The position numbers and the translations under genes are program-made. A stretch of 45,771 nucleotides of DNA from Streptomyces bohaiensis (GTDB lineage Bacteria > Actinomycetota > Actinomycetes > Streptomycetales > Streptomycetaceae). The stretch covers positions 1 through 45,771 of the forward strand of contig NZ_JAAVJC010000013.1 of assembly GCF_012033785.1 (NCBI RefSeq), written 5' to 3'. The notes beneath the pieces are model-generated. The model was not told the origin of the DNA, did no database searches, and saw only the letters and a program-made list of their open reading frames with translations. Positions 11,873 through 27,506 of the stretch are shown here, one piece after another (positions within the stretch are counted from its first letter, which is position 1; every line of letters starts with the position of its first letter).

Positions 11873-12219
11873 CCCCCGAGCCAAGCATGCCGGGGGCCGT
11901 TCGCGGGAGAGGGGGCGCGTCGCGGACGTCAGCGCTGTACGCCGTGGCGCGGGTCGGGTGGCGGGCTCGGTTCGGCCCCGAGCGGGACCGCGTGGGGCGG
12001 CGGACCCCACCCGCACGGGGCGGGCGGTGGGGCCACCGGCCCACGACGCGGAGGCGCCCGGCGCCTCGGTCGGCGTCGGGCGGTGGGGTGGGCGCCCCTC
12101 GGACGGCGGGCGCTCCGCCTGCGTGACAGCCGCCGCCTCACCGGAGCCGCCCGCCCCATGCGGCGGGGCCGGTCGGCGCCGTTCGCGAGGCCCGACCGGG
12201 CCCGCGGGGCCGTGCGAGC
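11873..12219. other. 347-base gap between decarboxylase and dps
   Basis: I see no credible gene here. The gap holds one exact CCGCACGGGGCGG copy (12011) set inside a larger imperfect stem (CCCCACCCGC ... GCGGGCGGTGGGG), and a G+C-rich hairpin at 12165-12203 just beyond the dps stop (GGGGCCGGTCGG pairing with CCGACCGGGCCC, one bulge) that is a reasonable dps terminator. The decarboxylase promoter must lie toward 11873-11990, but I cannot point to a convincing -35/-10 pair. Confidence 0.5.
12011..12023 (+). repeat. CCGCACGGGGCGG element, copy 4
   Basis: Exact copy in the middle of the dps/decarboxylase gap, enclosed by CCCCACC and GGTGGGG, which lengthen the possible stem. Confidence 0.7.
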
Positions 12220-12693
12220 TCAGCCGACGTTCTCGGCCTGGAACATCCAGTGGTGCTTCTCGAGGTCGCCGGTCACCTGGATGAAGATGTCCTCCGTGAC
12301 GCTGTCCACCTCACCGGTGGCCGCCATGCGCTCACGCATCCGGGCCACGACGCTGGAGAGCGCCGCGACCAGGGTGGCGACGGCGTCGGTGTCGCGCTGC
12401 CACCCTTCCGCGGTGGTGGCGATCCCGGTGTGGCTCGCCACGGTGCCGACACGGCCGTCCGGGGAGATCCCGAGGGCGGAGGCCCGCTCGGCGACGACGT
12501 CCGAGTAGGCACGCGCACTGTCCACCACCTCGTCCAGCTGCAGGTGGATGGAGCGGAATCGCGGCCCCACGACGTTCCAGTGCGTCTGCTTGGCCACGAG
12601 GGAGAGATCCACCAGGTCGACCAGGGCGCCTTGCAGGGCCTCCCCCACGACCTTCAGGGTTGCGTCGGGCAGTGTGCTCTTCACCGTGTACAT
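12220..12693 (-). CDS. Dps-family ferritin-like DNA protection protein
   Basis: A 157-residue Dps/miniferritin: a dodecameric shell that oxidises and stores iron and protects the nucleoid under stress. The family signature KQTHWNVVGPRFRSIHLQLDE (from ~K35) carries the ferroxidase His, the second His, and the Asp/Glu pair at the dimer interface. The C-terminal helix has DLEKHHWMFQAENVG. The length is typical and there is no long basic tail, so DNA binding may be weak or absent. The start is ATG at 12693. It lies 207 bases downstream of the broken thioesterase gene and probably has its own promoter. Confidence 0.95.
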   Translation of the reverse strand: MYTVKSTLPDATLKVVGEALQGALVDLVDLSLVAKQTHWNVVGPRFRSIHLQLDEVVDSARAYSDVVAERASALGISPDGRVGTVASHTGIATTAEGWQRDTDAVATLVAALSSVVARMRERMAATGEVDSVTEDIFIQVTGDLEKHHWMFQAENVG

Positions 12694-20737: not shown

Positions 20738-23176
20738 TCAGCCCTCGCCGGAACGGTCGGGGCGCTGCTGCTCCGCCCAGATGGTCTTGCCCGTCGGGCT
20801 GTGGCGCGTGCCCCACCGTTGCGCTAGCTGGGCGACGAGCATCAGCCCGCGGCCGCCCTCGTCGAAGCTGCTCGCCCGCCGCATGTGCGGCGAGGTGGCG
20901 CTGGTGTCGGACACCTCGCAGATCAGGGTGTCGTCGAGGATGAGCCGGAGCTTCACCGGGCCGGTGGCGTGGCGGATCGCGTTGGTGAGCAGTTCGGTCA
21001 CCACCAGCTCGGTGGTGAAGGCGGCCTCCGACAGGCCCCAGCGGTCGAGCTGCTCGGCGACGCCCCGACGGGCGGTGGCGCAGGCGGCTGGTTCGTGCGG
21101 CACGTCCCAGGTGACGACGTGGCGGGCGTCGAGCACGCGGGTCGCGGCCATCAGCAGGGCCACGTCGTCGGTGGGCGGCTCGTTCTGCAGGAGGGCGTCC
21201 AGCACCGCGGCACACCGGTCGTCGAGGGAGTCCGCGGGGCGGGCGAGCGCGAGGTGCAGCGCCCGGTACCCGGCGTCGACGTCCCGTTGGCGGCGTTCGA
21301 CGAGGCCGTCGGTGAAGAGCGCGAGGACCGAGCCCGGGGCCAGGACGAACTCGGCCGCCTCGAACGGCAGACCTCCCAGGCCCAGCGGCGGACCCGCCGG
21401 GACGTCCAGGGTGGTGACGGTGGCGCCGTCGGGAGAGGCGACCACGGGAGGGGGATGGCCGGCGCGCGCCATGCTGCACGTCCCGGAGACCGGGTCGTAG
21501 ACGGCGTACAGGCAGGTGGCCCCGATGTCCCCGGCGCTCTCGCCGCCGCCGGTCTCCTCGGCGAGACGGACCACGAGATCGTCCAGGTGGGCGATGAGCT
21601 CGTCGGGCGGGAGGTCGACGTCGGAGAGGGTCCGCACCGCGGTGCGGAGGCGCCCCATGGTGGCGGAGGCCTGGACGCCGTGCCCCACGACGTCGCCGAC
21701 GACCAGCGCCACGCGCGCTCCGGAGAGCGCGATCACGTCGAACCAGTCGCCGCCGACCCCACTGTGGCCGGACGCGGCCAGGTAGCGGTGGGCGACGTCG
21801 ACGCCGGAGAGCTGCGGGAGCGTGCGCGGCAGCAGACTGCGCTGGAGTGCGAGGGCGGTGTCCCGCTCGCGGGTGAACCGCTGCGCGTTGTCGAGGGAGA
21901 CGGCCGCCCGGGAGGCGATCTCTCGTGCCAGCAGCACGTCGTCGGGAGCGAACCGGTCGGGGCGCCGGTACCGCAGCAGGAGCGCGACGCCGAGGGTCTT
22001 GCGGCGGGAGGTCAGCGGCACGGCCAGGATCGAGTGGACCCCGAGGTCGGCCGCGTGGCGGCCCCGTTCCGGGTCCTGGGCCACCCAGGCGAGGAACCCG
22101 GGCTCGCCGCGCACGACCGTGACGGCTTCGCCGGAGAGCAGGGCGTGCACGGTGCCGGCCGCCATCGGGTGGTCCCACACCGCGCCGATCGGCAGCATGG
22201 CCTCGGGGGTGCCGGGGGTGCTGGAGCAGTGGGCGATGCGGCGCAGCCGCACGTGGCCCTCCGCGGGCCAGTCGGTGTCGGCCCCGGGATCTCGGGGCTC
22301 CTGAAGCAGGTCGACGCTGACGAAGTCGGCGAGGCGCGGCACGCAGACGTCGGCGAACTCCTGGGCGGTCCGGTCGACCTCCAGGGTGGTCCCGATACGG
22401 GTGCCGGCGTCGTTGATGAGCTGCAGGCGGCTGCGTGCCTCGTCCTCGGTGCTGAGGTCGACGGCGGACAGCGCGACTGCGACGAGGTGGTCCTGGGCGT
22501 CGCGGATCGGCGCCAGTCGGCCCATCCAGGCGTGTTCCCGCCGCTCACCCCCGGTGCGCAGCCGGGTGCGGACGTCACGGGGCCGACCTTCCTCCGCGAC
22601 CTGCCGGACCTGGTTCTCCAGCTCCATGCTCTGCCGCTTGCCGCCGATCTCGGAGAGGCGCAGCCCTCTTATGTCGTCCTCGCGGAGCCCCAGGACGGCT
22701 TCCATGGCCAGGTTGGCGCGGCGCAGGCGGACGGCGGTGTCGTACAGCGCGAGTGCGTTCGGCGCGTGGCGGAAGGCGTCGCGGGGCAGGTCGGCGTCGG
22801 CTCCGGTGGCCTCGAGACCCTCCAACGGGGTGACGACGAGCCATCCCGGGGGGCCCCAGTCGGCGTCGGTCAGGCGGTGGGCGATGACCCGGACCGGAAG
22901 GGCGCGCCCGGTCCGGTGGAGCACCTCCAGCGTGCCGTGCCAGCGGGGCTTCCCGCGGGCTGCTCGGGCGACGCGGGACAGCGCCTCGGGGTCGGCCAGC
23001 AGTTCGGCGACGGGGCGGCCGACGACCTCCTCCGCGGGCCGCCCCAGCAGACGCCGGGCACCGTCGTTCCAGCAGGTGACGGTGGCGGCGGGGTCGAGGA
23101 TCGCCCGCGCGGTGGCGGCCTCGTCCGGCACTTCGGCCCACGGATCGTCCAGCGGTCCGCACGCGCCCTGCGCCAT
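20738..23176 (-). CDS. PAS/GAF/SpoIIE phosphatase with C-terminal RsbW-like ATPase domain
   Basis: An 812-residue cytoplasmic signalling protein. Two PAS-like segments (~20-115, ILDPAATVTCWNDGARRLLG; ~130-240, RHAPNALALYDTAVRLRRAN) are followed by a GAF-like domain (~255-420) and a SpoIIE/PP2C phosphatase domain (~440-660) with metal-binding motifs GVGGDWFDVI, VVGDVVGHGVQASATMG, ALFTDGLVERR and PTDDVALLMA. The last ~125 residues are a HATPase_c_2/RsbW-like kinase with ELVVTELLTNAIRHA and EGGRGLMLVAQLAQRWG. Such proteins both dephosphorylate and phosphorylate anti-anti-sigma factors and are abundant in Streptomyces. The partner and ligand are not evident. The start is ATG at 23176 with GGAGG; an upstream in-frame extension is not PAS-like. 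Confidence 0.92.
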   Translation of the reverse strand: MAQGACGPLDDPWAEVPDEAATARAILDPAATVTCWNDGARRLLGRPAEEVVGRPVAELLADPEALSRVARAARGKPRWHGTLEVLHRTGRALPVRVIAHRLTDADWGPPGWLVVTPLEGLEATGADADLPRDAFRHAPNALALYDTAVRLRRANLAMEAVLGLREDDIRGLRLSEIGGKRQSMELENQVRQVAEEGRPRDVRTRLRTGGERREHAWMGRLAPIRDAQDHLVAVALSAVDLSTEDEARSRLQLINDAGTRIGTTLEVDRTAQEFADVCVPRLADFVSVDLLQEPRDPGADTDWPAEGHVRLRRIAHCSSTPGTPEAMLPIGAVWDHPMAAGTVHALLSGEAVTVVRGEPGFLAWVAQDPERGRHAADLGVHSILAVPLTSRRKTLGVALLLRYRRPDRFAPDDVLLAREIASRAAVSLDNAQRFTRERDTALALQRSLLPRTLPQLSGVDVAHRYLAASGHSGVGGDWFDVIALSGARVALVVGDVVGHGVQASATMGRLRTAVRTLSDVDLPPDELIAHLDDLVVRLAEETGGGESAGDIGATCLYAVYDPVSGTCSMARAGHPPPVVASPDGATVTTLDVPAGPPLGLGGLPFEAAEFVLAPGSVLALFTDGLVERRQRDVDAGYRALHLALARPADSLDDRCAAVLDALLQNEPPTDDVALLMAATRVLDARHVVTWDVPHEPAACATARRGVAEQLDRWGLSEAAFTTELVVTELLTNAIRHATGPVKLRLILDDTLICEVSDTSATSPHMRRASSFDEGGRGLMLVAQLAQRWGTRHSPTGKTIWAEQQRPDRSGEG

Positions 23177-23448: not shown

Positions 23449-23769
23449 ATGGCCGACGACACGCCGTGCACGACCGAGGACGGCCGCTACCTGTTGATCA
23501 ACGGCCGCCGGTGGCGGGCCACGGATCCGATGCTCCCCGAGGAGGTCGGACGGCGGCTGCGACGGCACCTCATGGCGGCACGTCGTGAGGTGGGGGTCGC
23601 GCTGCGCGCTGCGGACGAGGGCGCCGAGCGCCGCGCCCGGCGACGGGTGCACGCGGCGAAGACCGCTCTGGGGGAGCGCGGTACTCCCTGGTGGGAGCAG
23701 AGCGACGAGGAGCGCCGCGAGCGGTGGGAGGCCGGTCTGGCGACGTTGGACGAGGGCGACGGCGCGTGA
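23449..23769 (+). CDS. small conserved actinobacterial protein, function unknown
   Basis: A 106-residue, charged, soluble protein without signal or membrane segment. The N-terminus CTTEDGRYLLINGRRWRATDPMLPEEV resembles a short beta-hairpin domain; residues ~35-75 form an Arg/Ala-rich helix (LRRHLMAARREVGVALR, RRARRRVHAAKTALGERG) and the end reads GTPWWEQSDEERRERW. I recognise this as a small conserved Streptomyces family that is sometimes labelled a Tol transporter protein, a label the sequence does not support. GC-rich codon bias is normal, so it is likely a real gene. It is divergent from the phosphatase gene, whose start is 272 bases away. Confidence 0.75.
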   Translation: MADDTPCTTEDGRYLLINGRRWRATDPMLPEEVGRRLRRHLMAARREVGVALRAADEGAERRARRRVHAAKTALGERGTPWWEQSDEERRERWEAGLATLDEGDGA

Positions 23770-23940
23770 CCCGGGACCGCCGGGGCCGCACCGTTGCCGC
23801 CCCGTACGGTCGGTGTCGCGGCAGGCCGCGGCCGCGGTGCCGCCAGGACATGCGAACTGCGCGCCGCGGCGTTCCAATGGACTAGCGAGCGATACGCCGA
23901 GGCCCTTCGCTGCCCCTACCGGCACGATCCGATGTCGCGA

Positions 23941-23953
23941 CCGCACGGGGCGG
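23941..23953 (+). repeat. CCGCACGGGGCGG element, copy 6
   Basis: Exact copy in the 294-base gap before the Lys-rich protein gene. A one-mismatch reverse copy, CCGCCCCGTACGG, lies at 23798-23810 in the same gap. I see no gene between them. Confidence 0.7.
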
Positions 23954-24063
23954 CTCGTCGGCCGGGCGCGCGCCCCGGTGGACGACGAGCCGGGCGGACT
24001 GCGACCACGCGACAGGCCTCTTTCCCGGCGCCGCTCGGCCACCACGGAGAGAAGGCGAAGACC

Positions 24064-25044
24064 ATGGGACGTTCCAGCTCTGCCATGGCTGCGGGGGTGG
24101 CCGCGGGCTACCTGCTGGGCCGCACCAAGCGAGCCAAGGTGGCTCTCGCCCTGGCCGGTGTCGCCTTGGGACGGCGCGGCAAGGGTGCCCGCTCGGCGGA
24201 GGCGGCCAAGGGCGGGCTGCACAGGGTGGGGAACTCGTCCCTGCTGGACCGGCTGACCAGCGCCGGTGGCGGGGTGGTCGCCTCGGGGCGCTCGACCCTT
24301 GATTCGGGGATCCGGCACGGAGCGTCCTCCCTGGCCTCCGCGCTCGCGGCACGCACCGAAGCGCTGACGGCCGGAGAGGAGCAGCGAGGTGCGGCGACCG
24401 ACGAGGACGCCACCGACCGCGACGGCGACAGCGCGCCTGCGGCGAACGGTGCGCGGGACGGCGAGGACGCTGCCGACGGCGAGCAACCCGCCGGACGGCG
24501 CGCCTCGGAAGACCGTCGGACGCCTGAGCCGCCCGAGCCGGACGGCACGGCGCCCGACGAGGACGCCGAGGCGGGGGAGGCCGGGGCACCGGTCGAGGAC
24601 GACGCGGACGACGCGGACGACGAACCGAGCGGCGACGAAACCACGTCGAAGCCCACCGCGAAGGTCGCTCCGACGGCGAAGGCGACGGCGAAGCGCACGG
24701 CGGGGAAGGCCACGGCAGAGAAGCGCGACGGATCCGCCACGAAGTCCTCCGGCAGTCGGGCGACCAGCGCGACGGGCTCGGGCGCGAGCACGGGCCGCGC
24801 GAAGAAGTCCGCCGCCCGCGAGGCCCCGGCGAGGAAGGGCACCACGAAGAACGGCACCACGAAGAAGGCAGGCACGAAGAAGCCGACCGCCAAGAAGTCG
24901 GCTCCCGCGAAGGAGACGCCCCGGAAGTCCGCCGCAGCACCGGCGGCCTCCGGGGACGAGCGCCCCCCGCGGAAGCCCCGCGCCACACGCAGCGCGCGGC
25001 GCAGCGCACCTGCCACCCGTGCTCGGCGGGGAGAGGAGGAGTGA
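24064..25044 (+). CDS. GvpY-like protein with acidic middle and histone H1-like basic tail
   Basis: 326 residues in three parts. Residues ~1-110 include a short hydrophobic segment MAAGVAAGYLLGRTKRAK followed by VALALAGVALGRRGKG and a Ser/Gly/Leu-rich stretch. Residues ~120-200 are strongly acidic (DDADDADDEPSGDE). Residues ~200-326 are Lys/Ala/Thr-rich with repeating KKxxTKK-type units (TTKKAGTKKPTAKKSAP), like bacterial histone H1-type tails. The GYLLGRTKR-type start resembles, from memory, the actinobacterial gas-vesicle accessory protein GvpY; I cannot confirm this without a search. It is the first gene of a four-gene coupled set. The start is ATG at 24064 after GGAGAGAAGG. Its stop overlaps the next start (TGATG). 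Confidence 0.6.
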   Translation: MGRSSSAMAAGVAAGYLLGRTKRAKVALALAGVALGRRGKGARSAEAAKGGLHRVGNSSLLDRLTSAGGGVVASGRSTLDSGIRHGASSLASALAARTEALTAGEEQRGAATDEDATDRDGDSAPAANGARDGEDAADGEQPAGRRASEDRRTPEPPEPDGTAPDEDAEAGEAGAPVEDDADDADDEPSGDETTSKPTAKVAPTAKATAKRTAGKATAEKRDGSATKSSGSRATSATGSGASTGRAKKSAAREAPARKGTTKNGTTKKAGTKKPTAKKSAPAKETPRKSAAAPAASGDERPPRKPRATRSARRSAPATRARRGEEE

Positions 25045-25985
25045 TGACCACCACGCGGCAGAACGAGCCCGGTCCGTTGCCGGAGGCGATGGGACGGGTC
25101 CGCGAGGAGCTGATGCGCATGCTCGCCGCCCAGGCGAAAGCCGCGGTGCGCGCGACCGGCGAGAAGATCAAGGACTCCGGGATGCGCGCCGCCGAGTCGG
25201 CGACGGGCAGCAAGGTCGTACCGGATGCCGCCGGCCGGGTTCTCCAGGGCGAGAACCCTGCGGCGGCCACGGCGGGTTCGCTGAAGGAAGGGATCACGCG
25301 GCACGTCCCCGGGATGGGGTCGGACGAGGACCGCGAGCCGGCTGCCGGCGAGGGCGACGAGCACGCGTTCCTCAGCAAGGTGACGGCCATCATCGAGGCG
25401 ATCGATGTCGGTGTCCCGCGGTCGGTCTGCTACAACCACTGGACCGAGTTCGAGGATTTCGGAACCTGGGCCAAAGGCGTCACCAACGTCACCCAGATGG
25501 AGGATGAGAAGGCCACCTGGGGCTTCAAGATGGTGTTCTCCAGCCGGGAGTACGAGTCGACGATCGAGGAGCAGGTCCCCGACGACCGGGTGATCTGGAG
25601 CTCCGAGGGAGCGAAGGGCACCACCTACGGCGCCGTCACCTTCCATGAGCTGGGCCCGAGCCTGACGCGCGTGATCGCGGTCGTGGAGTACTCGCCCAGC
25701 GGGTTCTTCGAGAAGCTCGGCAATCTGTGGCGGGCTCAGGGACGCCGGCTGCGTCTGGACATGAAGAACTTCCAGCGGTACGTCACGCTGTCGGCCGATC
25801 CGGAGATCGAGGGCTGGCGCGGCGAGATCCGTGACGGCGAGGTGATTCGCTCCCACGAGGAGGCCATGGAGGCCGCCGAGGCCCAGGACGCGGAGGGCCC
25901 GGAGGACCGGGAGGACGAGCCGGACGACGAGTGGGATGACGAGCTCGACGACGACGAGGAGGAGGAGCCGGAGGACGAGCGGTGA
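25044..25985 (+). CDS. SRPBCC (START-fold) protein, GvpZ-like
   Basis: 313 residues. An N-terminal helical region (~1-110) includes ARTLAAQ-type amphipathic sequence, LMRMLAAQAKAAVRATGEKIKDSG. The SRPBCC/polyketide-cyclase fold (~115-255) shows FLSKVTAIIEAIDVGVPRS, VCYNHWTEFEDFGTWAKGV, ATWGFKMVFSSREYESTIEE, DRVIWSSEGAKGTTYGAVTF and ALRLDMKNF-type final helix LRLDMKNFQRYV. The last ~50 residues are very acidic (DEWDDELDDDEEEEPEDE). The fold binds hydrophobic ligands in a pocket; no catalytic residues are apparent. ATG at 25044 shares its A with the upstream TGA and is preceded by GGAGAGGAGGAG; GTG at 25041 is an alternative. SRPBCC genes of this kind occur in Streptomyces gas-vesicle clusters. 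Confidence 0.75.
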   Translation: MTTTRQNEPGPLPEAMGRVREELMRMLAAQAKAAVRATGEKIKDSGMRAAESATGSKVVPDAAGRVLQGENPAAATAGSLKEGITRHVPGMGSDEDREPAAGEGDEHAFLSKVTAIIEAIDVGVPRSVCYNHWTEFEDFGTWAKGVTNVTQMEDEKATWGFKMVFSSREYESTIEEQVPDDRVIWSSEGAKGTTYGAVTFHELGPSLTRVIAVVEYSPSGFFEKLGNLWRAQGRRLRLDMKNFQRYVTLSADPEIEGWRGEIRDGEVIRSHEEAMEAAEAQDAEGPEDREDEPDDEWDDELDDDEEEEPEDER

Positions 25986-26051
25986 CGCCCGCCTGCCCGG
26001 CCCCGCTGCCCACCGGGCCGCACCACGGCCCCTGTCGCAGGAGACCGCCCC

Positions 26052-26876
26052 ATGAGCGCTGACCAGTCCCCCGAGGAGTTCGGTCCCGACGACGGGACCC
26101 CGACGCCGGGCGTCACACCCGACGTCACTCTCGACGTGCCGGTGTTGAACGTCGAGGAGATCGAGATCGAGGCCGAGGACCTGCGGGCCAATGTCACGCT
26201 CCAGGCCGAGCTGCTCGATCTGCTGAAGATCAACGTGGGGGCGGAGGCGTCGCTGGGGCGGTTGAACGTGGGGGTGCGCGGCGTGGAGGTGCAGGCGCTA
26301 CTCCAGGTCCACCTCGACAACGTGGCCTCGATGATCGAGACGGCGCTCACCACGCTCGCGGAGAACCCGGAGATCGTGGCCCACCTCGCGCGGACGGCGG
26401 AGTCCGCGGCGCAGAGTGTCAGTGGCGCCGCGTCGGAGGCGCTACCGGAGGTGGGCCGCGCCGCGGCCGACACCGCCGGGCACGCGTCCCGGGCGGTCGA
26501 GTCCGTGGGGAGCGGCGCGGCGGACGCGGTCGGCGGCGCGGCGGAATCCGTCGTCGACACCGCGGGCGAACTCACCGAGGACGACGCCGACAGCGCCGGG
26601 GCCGCAGCACAGGGTTCCGGTGACGTGCCCGACGGCGCAGCGGAGCACCCGTCCGGGCGCCGAGGCGCGGAGAGGCCGCCGGACGGCTCGCCGCGGAAGA
26701 AGAAGCAGCGTCCGGATGACGGGACGGACAGCGGGAGCGAGCGGACGAAACGCCGCCCCACGCCCCGTACCGGCACGGGGCGGCCGCGGCGGACGAGTAC
26801 CTCCGCCGACGAGCGGCGCAGCCGGCGGCGCGATCCGGCGGTGGGGGGCCGTGCCGTCCGGCGCCATCCGCCGTGA
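26052..26876 (+). CDS. conserved coupled-operon protein with long amphipathic Ala/Ser repeats
   Basis: 274 residues. The conserved part is ~30-115: VPVLNVEEIEIEAEDLRANV, TLQAELLDLLKINVGAEASL, GRLNVGVRGVEVQALLQVHL, DNVASMIETALTTLAENPEI. It reads as beta-strands followed by a helix. From ~120 to 195 it becomes an Ala/Ser/Val repeat of about 11 residues per turn block (AAQSVSGAASEAL, AADTAGHASRAVESVG, AADAVGGAAESVVDTAG), like phasin or LEA amphipathic helices that coat surfaces. The C-terminus is Arg/Pro-rich, disordered, and includes an element variant (26771). No enzyme motif is seen. I know similar proteins beside SRPBCC genes in Streptomyces but no function. Its stop overlaps the next start (GTGA). 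Confidence 0.7.
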   Translation: MSADQSPEEFGPDDGTPTPGVTPDVTLDVPVLNVEEIEIEAEDLRANVTLQAELLDLLKINVGAEASLGRLNVGVRGVEVQALLQVHLDNVASMIETALTTLAENPEIVAHLARTAESAAQSVSGAASEALPEVGRAAADTAGHASRAVESVGSGAADAVGGAAESVVDTAGELTEDDADSAGAAAQGSGDVPDGAAEHPSGRRGAERPPDGSPRKKKQRPDDGTDSGSERTKRRPTPRTGTGRPRRTSTSADERRSRRRDPAVGGRAVRRHPP

Positions 26877-27142
26877 CGGCACCGGAAGACCGTAGGGGTC
26901 CGCCGGAGATCGGCTTCGCCGCCCGTCTTCACGCGGATCGTCTGCGGTTCGCGGAAGCGCCGGACGCGCGGGTGGCGTTCCGCGACGGCCCGGGGGTCGC
27001 GTCGTCCTCCGAGTCCACACGGGAGAACCTGCCGGACCGCGTCGAACCGGGTGCGGAGTACGAGCAGGTCCGGGTGGACTACCGGCTCGTCACGCGGACG
27101 CGCCGCCCGGGCCGTCCGTCGCGACGGCGCCGGAACCCGTGA
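26873..27142 (+). CDS. small conserved protein, last gene of coupled operon
   Basis: 89 residues, no signal peptide, no Cys, basic at both ends. The middle reads GFAARLHADRLRFAEAPDARVAF and the C-terminal third NLPDRVEPGAEYEQVRVDYRLVTR, suggesting a small beta-rich fold. It starts at GTG 26873, overlapping the preceding TGA by four bases, so translation is coupled and the partner proteins are likely needed in fixed proportion. It converges on azlD, with 46 bases between stops. I do not recognise a function. Confidence 0.65.
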   Translation: MTAPEDRRGPPEIGFAARLHADRLRFAEAPDARVAFRDGPGVASSSESTRENLPDRVEPGAEYEQVRVDYRLVTRTRRPGRPSRRRRNP

Positions 27143-27188
27143 CGGTACGAGCGGGCGCGTCGCACGGGCGGCGTGTCGCTTTCCGCTC

Positions 27189-27506
27189 TCAGACGTTCAG
27201 CAGGATGACGTGGACCGCGGTGCCCGCGGTGATGCTGAGCAGCAGGTTGCGGCGCCACAGGTGCAGGCCGGCGGTGACGGCGAGCGCGGCGGCGGGCGCC
27301 ATCCACGCGTTGTCGGCGACGGGCGTGCCCCGCAGGCAGTAGACGACGAGCACCACCAGGACGCCGGTCGGCATCCGCAGGCCGAGGTAGTGCAGGGTGC
27401 GGCTCTCCCGGAGCGGGGCGAGCGCGACGAAGGGCAGCGCCCGCAGCGACCAGGTGACCGCCACGGTGACGGCAACCGCCGCGAGCAGGTACGGGGCGTC
27501 AGGCAC
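27189..27506 (-). CDS. azlD: AzlD-family branched-chain amino acid export subunit
   Basis: A 105-residue membrane protein with about four hydrophobic helices (YLLAAVAVTVAVTWSLRALPF, VLVVLVVYCLRG, MAPAAALAVTAGLHLW, LLLSITAGTAVHVILLNV). It matches the small subunit of LIV-E exporters (AzlCD/BrnFE), which pair with AzlC to export leucine, isoleucine, valine and methionine. The start, ATG 27506, lies inside the 3' end of azlC (8-base overlap), so the two are coupled. Confidence 0.92.
   Translation of the reverse strand: MPDAPYLLAAVAVTVAVTWSLRALPFVALAPLRESRTLHYLGLRMPTGVLVVLVVYCLRGTPVADNAWMAPAAALAVTAGLHLWRRNLLLSITAGTAVHVILLNV

Follow-up and report, generated by a model that had tools for sequence, protein, structure and literature searches.

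The window analysed here, a stretch of 45,771 nucleotides from Streptomyces bohaiensis (contig NZ_JAAVJC010000013.1), contains what is apparently one operon, in which genes for homologues of the gas-vesicle helper proteins GvpY and GvpZ (hereafter Y and Z) are followed by two further genes, P3 and P4 (Table 1). Y, Z and P3 are also present in related genomes in which no gas-vesicle shell gene was detected, and they occur together on a phage contig, which suggests that the Y-Z helpers have a function outside gas vesicles as well. The identity of the module, that is, Y-Z together with P3-P4, can be taken as very probable, and its independence of gas-vesicle (gvp) genes is supported by gene position and presence. 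It is then quite plausible, if just short of probable, that the Y-Z pair works outside gas vesicles with the amphipathic protein P3 and its partner P4 by way of the coating mechanism outlined below, and that mechanism considered on its own is possible rather than probable. GvpY-GvpZ pairs that occur in phages, next to a new partner or in the absence of a shell gene make the role of Y and Z addressable without gas vesicles, and P3 and P4 constitute two unnamed protein families that are open to direct testing.

Y, Z and P3 in genomes without detected shell genes

The occurrence of the module was surveyed in 150 genomes of the genus, with genes being considered linked when located within 15 kb of each other. 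Z matches are present in 129 of these genomes (145 strong matches in 112 genomes), GvpA matches in 120 (118 over the cut-off), and matches to the P3 core in 28, of which 27 are strong; a weak P3 match in G043 (E 3.9e-5) was kept out of the 27. In four genomes (G037, G044, G100 and G137), Y, Z and P3 are neighbours and neither GvpA (PF00741) nor GvpF/L (PF06386) has a match, and one of these four genomes is a single contig that is 99% complete. At least 116 of the 145 strong Z lie within 15 kb of GvpA, and 29 are without GvpA among the matches listed; of the latter, 8 are linked to P3, 19 others were fetched (8 having gvp matches), and G144 and G067 were read separately. In all, 124 of the 145 strong Z have gvp neighbours and 21 have no detected ones. 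Among the 21 gvp-less Z, 8 have P3 within 15 kb, compared with none of the 124 with gvp neighbours (Fisher p 5e-8, without regard to relatedness), and all 27 genomes with a strong P3 match also have a strong Z (Fisher p 1.8e-4, relatedness likewise ignored). Two cases need comment. In G144, kept among the 21, a gvpF-like gene adjoins Y-Z, GvpA gives no more than a weak match (E 4.7e-4), and P3-P4 is on a different contig; L148, which has only a gvpG match, was counted as gvp-linked in the Fisher test and as an orphan in the tree of Z proteins described next.

The order Y-Z-P3-P4 is shared by the window, S. lonarensis (G113), S. spiramenti, S. otsuchiensis and genome G037. A first-pass annotation of this DNA had considered the case that co-occurrence of the four genes might not be conserved; the same-order block recurs in four other genomes. 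At other loci the arrangement differs: P3 precedes Y-Z, with an Asp23-family gene between, in G044 and G100, is convergent with Y-Z in G137 and G088, and is divergent from it in G028 and S. cacaoi. In a tree of 63 Z proteins (quick search, SH-aLRT support only; L004 and L060, apparently one organism, are represented by a single copy here and in the P4 count below), the label ‘P3-linked’ changes 5 times, compared with a mean of 11.2 in shuffles; no fewer than 3 of these changes are required by starred branches, the phage row included. The Z proteins of the window, S. lonarensis, S. spiramenti and S. otsuchiensis form a group of four on a starred branch, and the closest kin of this group is the Z of G037, which lacks a GvpA match (the support of 89 does not reach the starred level). 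That the same partner has been joined repeatedly, and in differing arrangements, is the best evidence of a working link between Y-Z and P3.

As a separate observation, Asp23-family genes recur beside Y-Z without detected gvp neighbours (L055, L056, L057, L062 and L084, Table 1; also L140, L142 and L144), and are found near gvp genes as well (L081, L082 and L139). One of these assignments was made by Pfam and the others by similarity.

Phage cassettes

When viral contigs were scanned with the P3 profile, one 177-kb phage contig emerged that encodes Y, Z and P3 in the order of the window (L157), and a scan with the Z of this phage yielded two further phage contigs with Y-Z (L158 and L159), of which one derives from a different metagenome; the 12.9-kb stretches examined of these two showed no P3. 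In the 177-kb contig, the cassette is flanked by a Neck1-like gene on one side and, on the other, by a short gene preceding the tape measure gene, within a module that encodes the major head and tail proteins. Homologues of the two flanking genes are adjacent in the phages DSL-LC01, Mimi and Cece, being 33, 39 and 53 bases apart, respectively, and the stretches examined of these phages contain no match to Y, Z or P3. Because the flanking genes adjoin without insert in all three named relatives examined, the cassette looks like an insertion. A scan of the viral contigs with the window's Z returned nothing, a scan with the phage P3 returned the same 177-kb contig only, and neither phage Z nor phage P3 has a match among 50,697 records of named phages. 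In PHROGs, the phage Y weakly matches a family of unknown function, and no family is matched by the four window proteins or the phage P3; likewise, none of these five proteins matches PADLOC-DB, that is, a system of anti-phage defence. The phage cassette, the four genomes with Y-Z-P3 and without GvpA or GvpF/L, and the repeated links of P3 to Y-Z away from gvp genes strengthen the early suggestion that the block represents an independent system.

Gas-vesicle genes of the host and of relatives

A tblastn search with the host's own Gvp proteins revealed neither a gvp gene nor a gas-vesicle operon, in the sense of a GvpA shell gene clustered with GvpF/L, in the window. The three matches of the host genome to PF00741 (GvpA) all reside on contig C22, where the gvp genes are arranged in the order O, A, F, G, short Y (129 aa), J, L, S, K (named after homology to an annotated Kitasatospora cluster, and after their order). 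The original statement that the block comes without gas-vesicle structural genes is thus correct for its neighbourhood, and incorrect for the genome. The host cluster has no Z, and the genome's sole match to Z is the window gene. S. lonarensis is arranged likewise, with a gvp cluster that contains Y and no Z, and has a second gvp cluster without Y or Z matches. Loci L082, L083 and L089 have the arrangement O, A, F, G, Y, Z, J, L, S, K, which from O to S agrees with the published gvp order of S. coelicolor (PMC5839063). Hence, the scenario that relatives carry Y-Z inside gvp clusters and that the block has merely moved is half borne out: relatives do have Y-Z inside gvp clusters, yet the four genes also recur together away from gvp.

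Because the gvp clusters of the host and of S. lonarensis contain Y and no Z, the block could serve gas vesicles in trans. This constitutes the main alternative: Y-Z would have left the host's gvp cluster and would still serve the vesicles encoded on C22, with P3 and P4 being accessories as well, and the gvp neighbours of 124 of the 145 strong Z fit such a view. However, (i) Y-Z-P3 is kept in the four genomes without a GvpA or GvpF/L match, (ii) strong Z is missing from 12 of the 120 GvpA-positive genomes (one with weak GvpA only), so that a gvp cluster can persist without Z, (iii) P3 is near none of the gvp-linked Z, and (iv) the nearest kin in the Z tree comes from G037 with its lack of GvpA. 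We regard service in trans as rather unlikely.

Behind gvpK of the host's gvp cluster lies an Ala/Lys-rich gene (L008) without a Pfam match.

Proteins Y and Z

The first-pass annotation had proposed the first two genes as relatives of GvpY and GvpZ, an assignment borne out by sequence and by the position of their homologues in complete gvp clusters. The window's Y possesses the features of GvpY, that is, the conserved N-terminal segment, an acidic and then a basic tail, and a location directly before Z, and in residues 4-52 it shares 46.9% identity (E 4e-7) with the Y encoded in the gvp cluster on contig C22. The histone H1-like tail and the acidic block initially ascribed to Y are indeed there; the matches of the tail to the H1-like family HC2 remain below cut-off both in Pfam (22.1 bits, E 1.8e-4, cut-off 40) and in NCBIfam (21.9 bits, cut-off 80), and the N-terminal segment is of moderate hydrophobicity, with a peak 19-residue hydropathy of 0.95 at residue 17 and no clear membrane helix. 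For Z, the proposed SRPBCC fold with an acidic tail at its end agrees with a match to Pfam PF03364 (Polyketide_cyc) of 49.3 bits (cut-off 23.4). Z is 37 to 64% identical to the strong genus matches listed, except for 88% in S. lonarensis, and 46 to 48% identical to the Z inside the gvp clusters of L082, L083 and L089 (48% for L082 and 47% for L083). By sequence, i.e., an SRPBCC domain and an acidic tail in a homologue of the gene between gvpY and gvpJ, it is a GvpZ; by location, it lies outside a gvp cluster.

The charge pattern recurs among 39 Y-Z pairs (36 bacterial and 3 phage), a pair being a Y called beside Z; L141, L146, L152 and L154, which yielded no pair by this definition, were not counted, and L144 was counted though its Y is not a true neighbour (gap -3016). 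A basic 50-residue window of at least +10 is present in 33 of the 39 Y proteins and an acidic tail of -10 or below in 38 of the 39 Z proteins, and the gap between the two genes is -7 to +8 in 38 pairs, these sizes hinging on the start codon chosen. Such a pattern might also be read as that of a module that organises DNA, in which Y, by its H1-like tail, and P3, by its basic one, would bind DNA and the acidic tail of Z would regulate the binding. The weak HC2 match and the frequent basic windows of Y proteins are in line with this reading, but the basic tails are of low complexity and could thus bind any polyanion, the Z tail included, and the likely signal peptide of a P3 from Deinococcus taeanensis (see below) speaks against DNA as the partner there. 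A DNA-organising role therefore appears improbable.

Proteins P3 and P4

P3 and P4 match nothing above cut-off in Pfam or NCBIfam. The roughly 75 residues of amphipathic Ala/Ser repeats that had been read from the third gene are confirmed by the mean helical hydrophobic moment of residues 108-180, which amounts to 1.45 versus 0.58 +/- 0.12 in shuffles, with none of 500 shuffles being as high. Residues 24-112 exhibit a strand-like hydrophobic period that is reached by 3 of 500 shuffles, and a comparison of the P3 core profile with solved structures gave nothing convincing (best E 0.24).

P4 is present at 33 of 50 P3 loci, opening directly behind P3 at 22 and being located 0.6 to 1.4 kb off at 11, the latter from family f18; among the 17 loci without P4, L062, L074, L122, L123 and L126 are short, so that P4 may be out of sight. 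Across 396 genomes of the phylum, P3 was found in 25, namely 3 of the window's genus, 20 of f18, which belongs to another class, and 2 others (one weak). P3 occurs in 20 of the 39 genomes of f18; GvpA was found in none of these 20, and their Z matches are weak and confined to the SRPBCC domain. At the two closely read f18 loci, L114 and L118, a long P3 has genes for e3-binding-domain proteins in its vicinity, and part of the f18 loci possess a second, short P3. The long P3 of L118 contains apolipoprotein-like repeats (PF01442, 99.5 bits, cut-off 90). According to our reading of the sequence, a recombinase-like gene adjoins it. P3 is also encoded on plasmids of Deinococcus deserti and D. taeanensis, neither of which has a GvpZ match, and the D. 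taeanensis P3, as we read its sequence, likely starts with a signal peptide. On both plasmids a convergent 168-aa gene adjoins P3.

Apolipoproteins (PF01442) and phasins (PF09361) have amphipathic repeats as P3 does, and three P3 relatives match one or the other profile, one above the Pfam cut-off and two below. This would be consistent with a module for storage granules, lipid droplets or protection against desiccation that centres on P3, with Y-Z as an optional partner, as would the finding that 19 of the 27 strong P3 matches in the genus have no strong Z nearby, whereby P3 need not adjoin Y-Z, and the presence of P3 on the two Deinococcus plasmids. However, any amphipathic repeat is expected to match such profiles, the window's P3, unlike the members of those families, matches neither of the two, and no conserved neighbour for the synthesis of storage lipids or polyesters was noticed, with no systematic search having been made. 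We give a storage or protection module little credence.

Proposed mechanism and comparison with known systems

If the Y-Z pair works with P3 and P4 outside gas vesicles, one may envisage that (i) the N-terminal segment of Y seats the protein on a hydrophobic or membrane-like surface, (ii) Y and Z associate loosely through the opposite charges of their tails, basic in Y and acidic in Z, (iii) Z uses its SRPBCC pocket to bind or present a lipid or another hydrophobic ligand, and (iv) the amphipathic stretch of P3 coats the surface, with P4 assisting P3. In gas-vesicle clusters, this Y-Z adaptor would be employed on the GvpA shell. In its wider form, this amounts to the tentative proposal of a gvp-independent, surface-coating or compartment-building Y-Z-P3 system that exists in bacteria without shell genes and, as an inserted cassette, in large actinobacterial phages, and whose Y-Z half is shared by gvp clusters. 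If true, P3 and P4 would found a new family of amphipathic coats, and P3 spans two classes of Actinomycetota as well as the Deinococcota.

Several observations weigh against such a role, in addition to the possible service in trans and the many P3 away from Z. No P3 is found near 13 of the 21 gvp-less Z, and some of these 21 are on short contigs (G028, 3.7 kb; G112:C797, 16.5 kb; G024:C92, 21 kb), where gvp genes may have been missed. The P3-linked Y-Z loci L055, L056, L057 and L061 and the phage yielded no P4, and L062 ends behind P3. Neither AlphaFold model of P3 is of usable quality, the mean pLDDT being 47.8 for the whole protein (5 sequences) and 42.5 for the core (6 sequences). Finally, the strengths of the Y and Z tails are uncorrelated across the 39 pairs (Spearman -0.26, p 0.11); as Y, moreover, has an acidic block of its own, Y and Z are best considered candidate binding partners.

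Prothymosin alpha forms a complex with histone H1. The combination of a very acidic tail with an H1-like basic tail, as in Z and Y, resembles that system at the level of sequence (PMC11971343); Y, in addition, bears its own acidic block.

In the S. coelicolor account, gvpY and gvpZ are SCO6503/SCO6504 and SCO0653/SCO0654, both called (conserved) hypothetical (PMC5839063). As far as gene names and order can be compared, the window resembles these pairs in that Y is followed by Z in tight coupling, and differs from the S. coelicolor clusters in that Y-Z has none of gvpO, A, F, G, J, L, S and K as a neighbour and is instead followed by P3 and P4. S. coelicolor has gvp genes, yet no known condition yields gas vesicles according to two reports (PMC4982088, PMC5839063). 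For Serratia sp. ATCC 39006, V, W, X, Y and Z are the names of five proteins of unknown function (PMC4982088), and the likeness of its GvpY/GvpZ to the present pair is by name only. We found no description of Y-Z apart from gas vesicles in the accessible parts of the open-licence literature on gvpY/gvpZ and on actinomycete gas vesicles.

Layout and surroundings of the block

The four genes, their joints and their charge pattern are all as first described: Y and Z overlap in TGATG, Z and P3 are 66 bases apart, and P3 and P4 overlap in GTGA. Genes at the other loci were called with a custom caller rather than taken from standard annotation.

Table 1. Coordinates of the four-gene block, of its upstream neighbours, and of related features at other loci.
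Feature	Location	Strand	Length or content
Y	24064-25044	+	326 aa, GvpY homologue
Y, conserved N-terminal segment	24064-24378		followed by acidic middle
Y, H1-like basic tail	about 24649-25017
Z	25044-25985	+	313 aa, GvpZ homologue
Z, SRPBCC domain	25407-25772
Z, acidic tail	about 25833-25982
P3	26052-26876	+	274 aa, third gene, no named family
P3, conserved core	26106-26387
P3, amphipathic Ala/Ser stretch	26373-26591
P3, basic tail	about 26652-26873
P4	26873-27142	+	89 aa, fourth gene, no named family
Phosphatase gene upstream of block	20738-23176	-	PAS-GAF-SpoIIE with ATPase domain
Gene upstream of Y	23449-23769		106 aa
Phage cassette, 177-kb contig	L157:4979-7612		Y, Z, P3
Phage Y-Z	L158:4997-7071		Y, Z
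Phage Y-Z	L159:4925-7131		Y, Z
P3 on D. deserti plasmid	L090:7830-8717
P3 on D. taeanensis plasmid	L091:7707-8708
f18 loci with P3 and P4	L114, L118		closely read
f18 loci with P3 and P4	L115, L116, L119-L121, L124, L127-L129
Gene behind host gvpK	L008:8772-9233		153 aa, Ala/Lys-rich
Asp23-family genes	L055:9679-10119 and 11952-12395
Asp23-family gene	L056:8929-9327
Asp23-family gene	L057:7043-7480
Asp23-family gene	L062:2139-2570
Asp23-family gene	L084:6675-7115

A simple scan of positions 23700-27400 detected no sigma-70-type promoter and a single terminator-like site, which is on the minus strand; shuffles give equally many. A sigma-B-type promoter was considered as a shared signal: it precedes 2 of 41 Y genes (both of them phage genes), 0 of 12 P3 genes and 0 of 15 gvpO genes, compared with 21 of 728 other genes, and was rejected as a signal common to Y or gvpO. 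ARAGORN found no tRNA in the window, and the genes that flank the block look like ordinary chromosomal genes. The 106-aa gene upstream of Y has no match on the S. otsuchiensis contig and is kept in S. lonarensis and S. spiramenti, and a gene similar to the window's PAS-GAF-SpoIIE gene is also located near the block in the latter two species.

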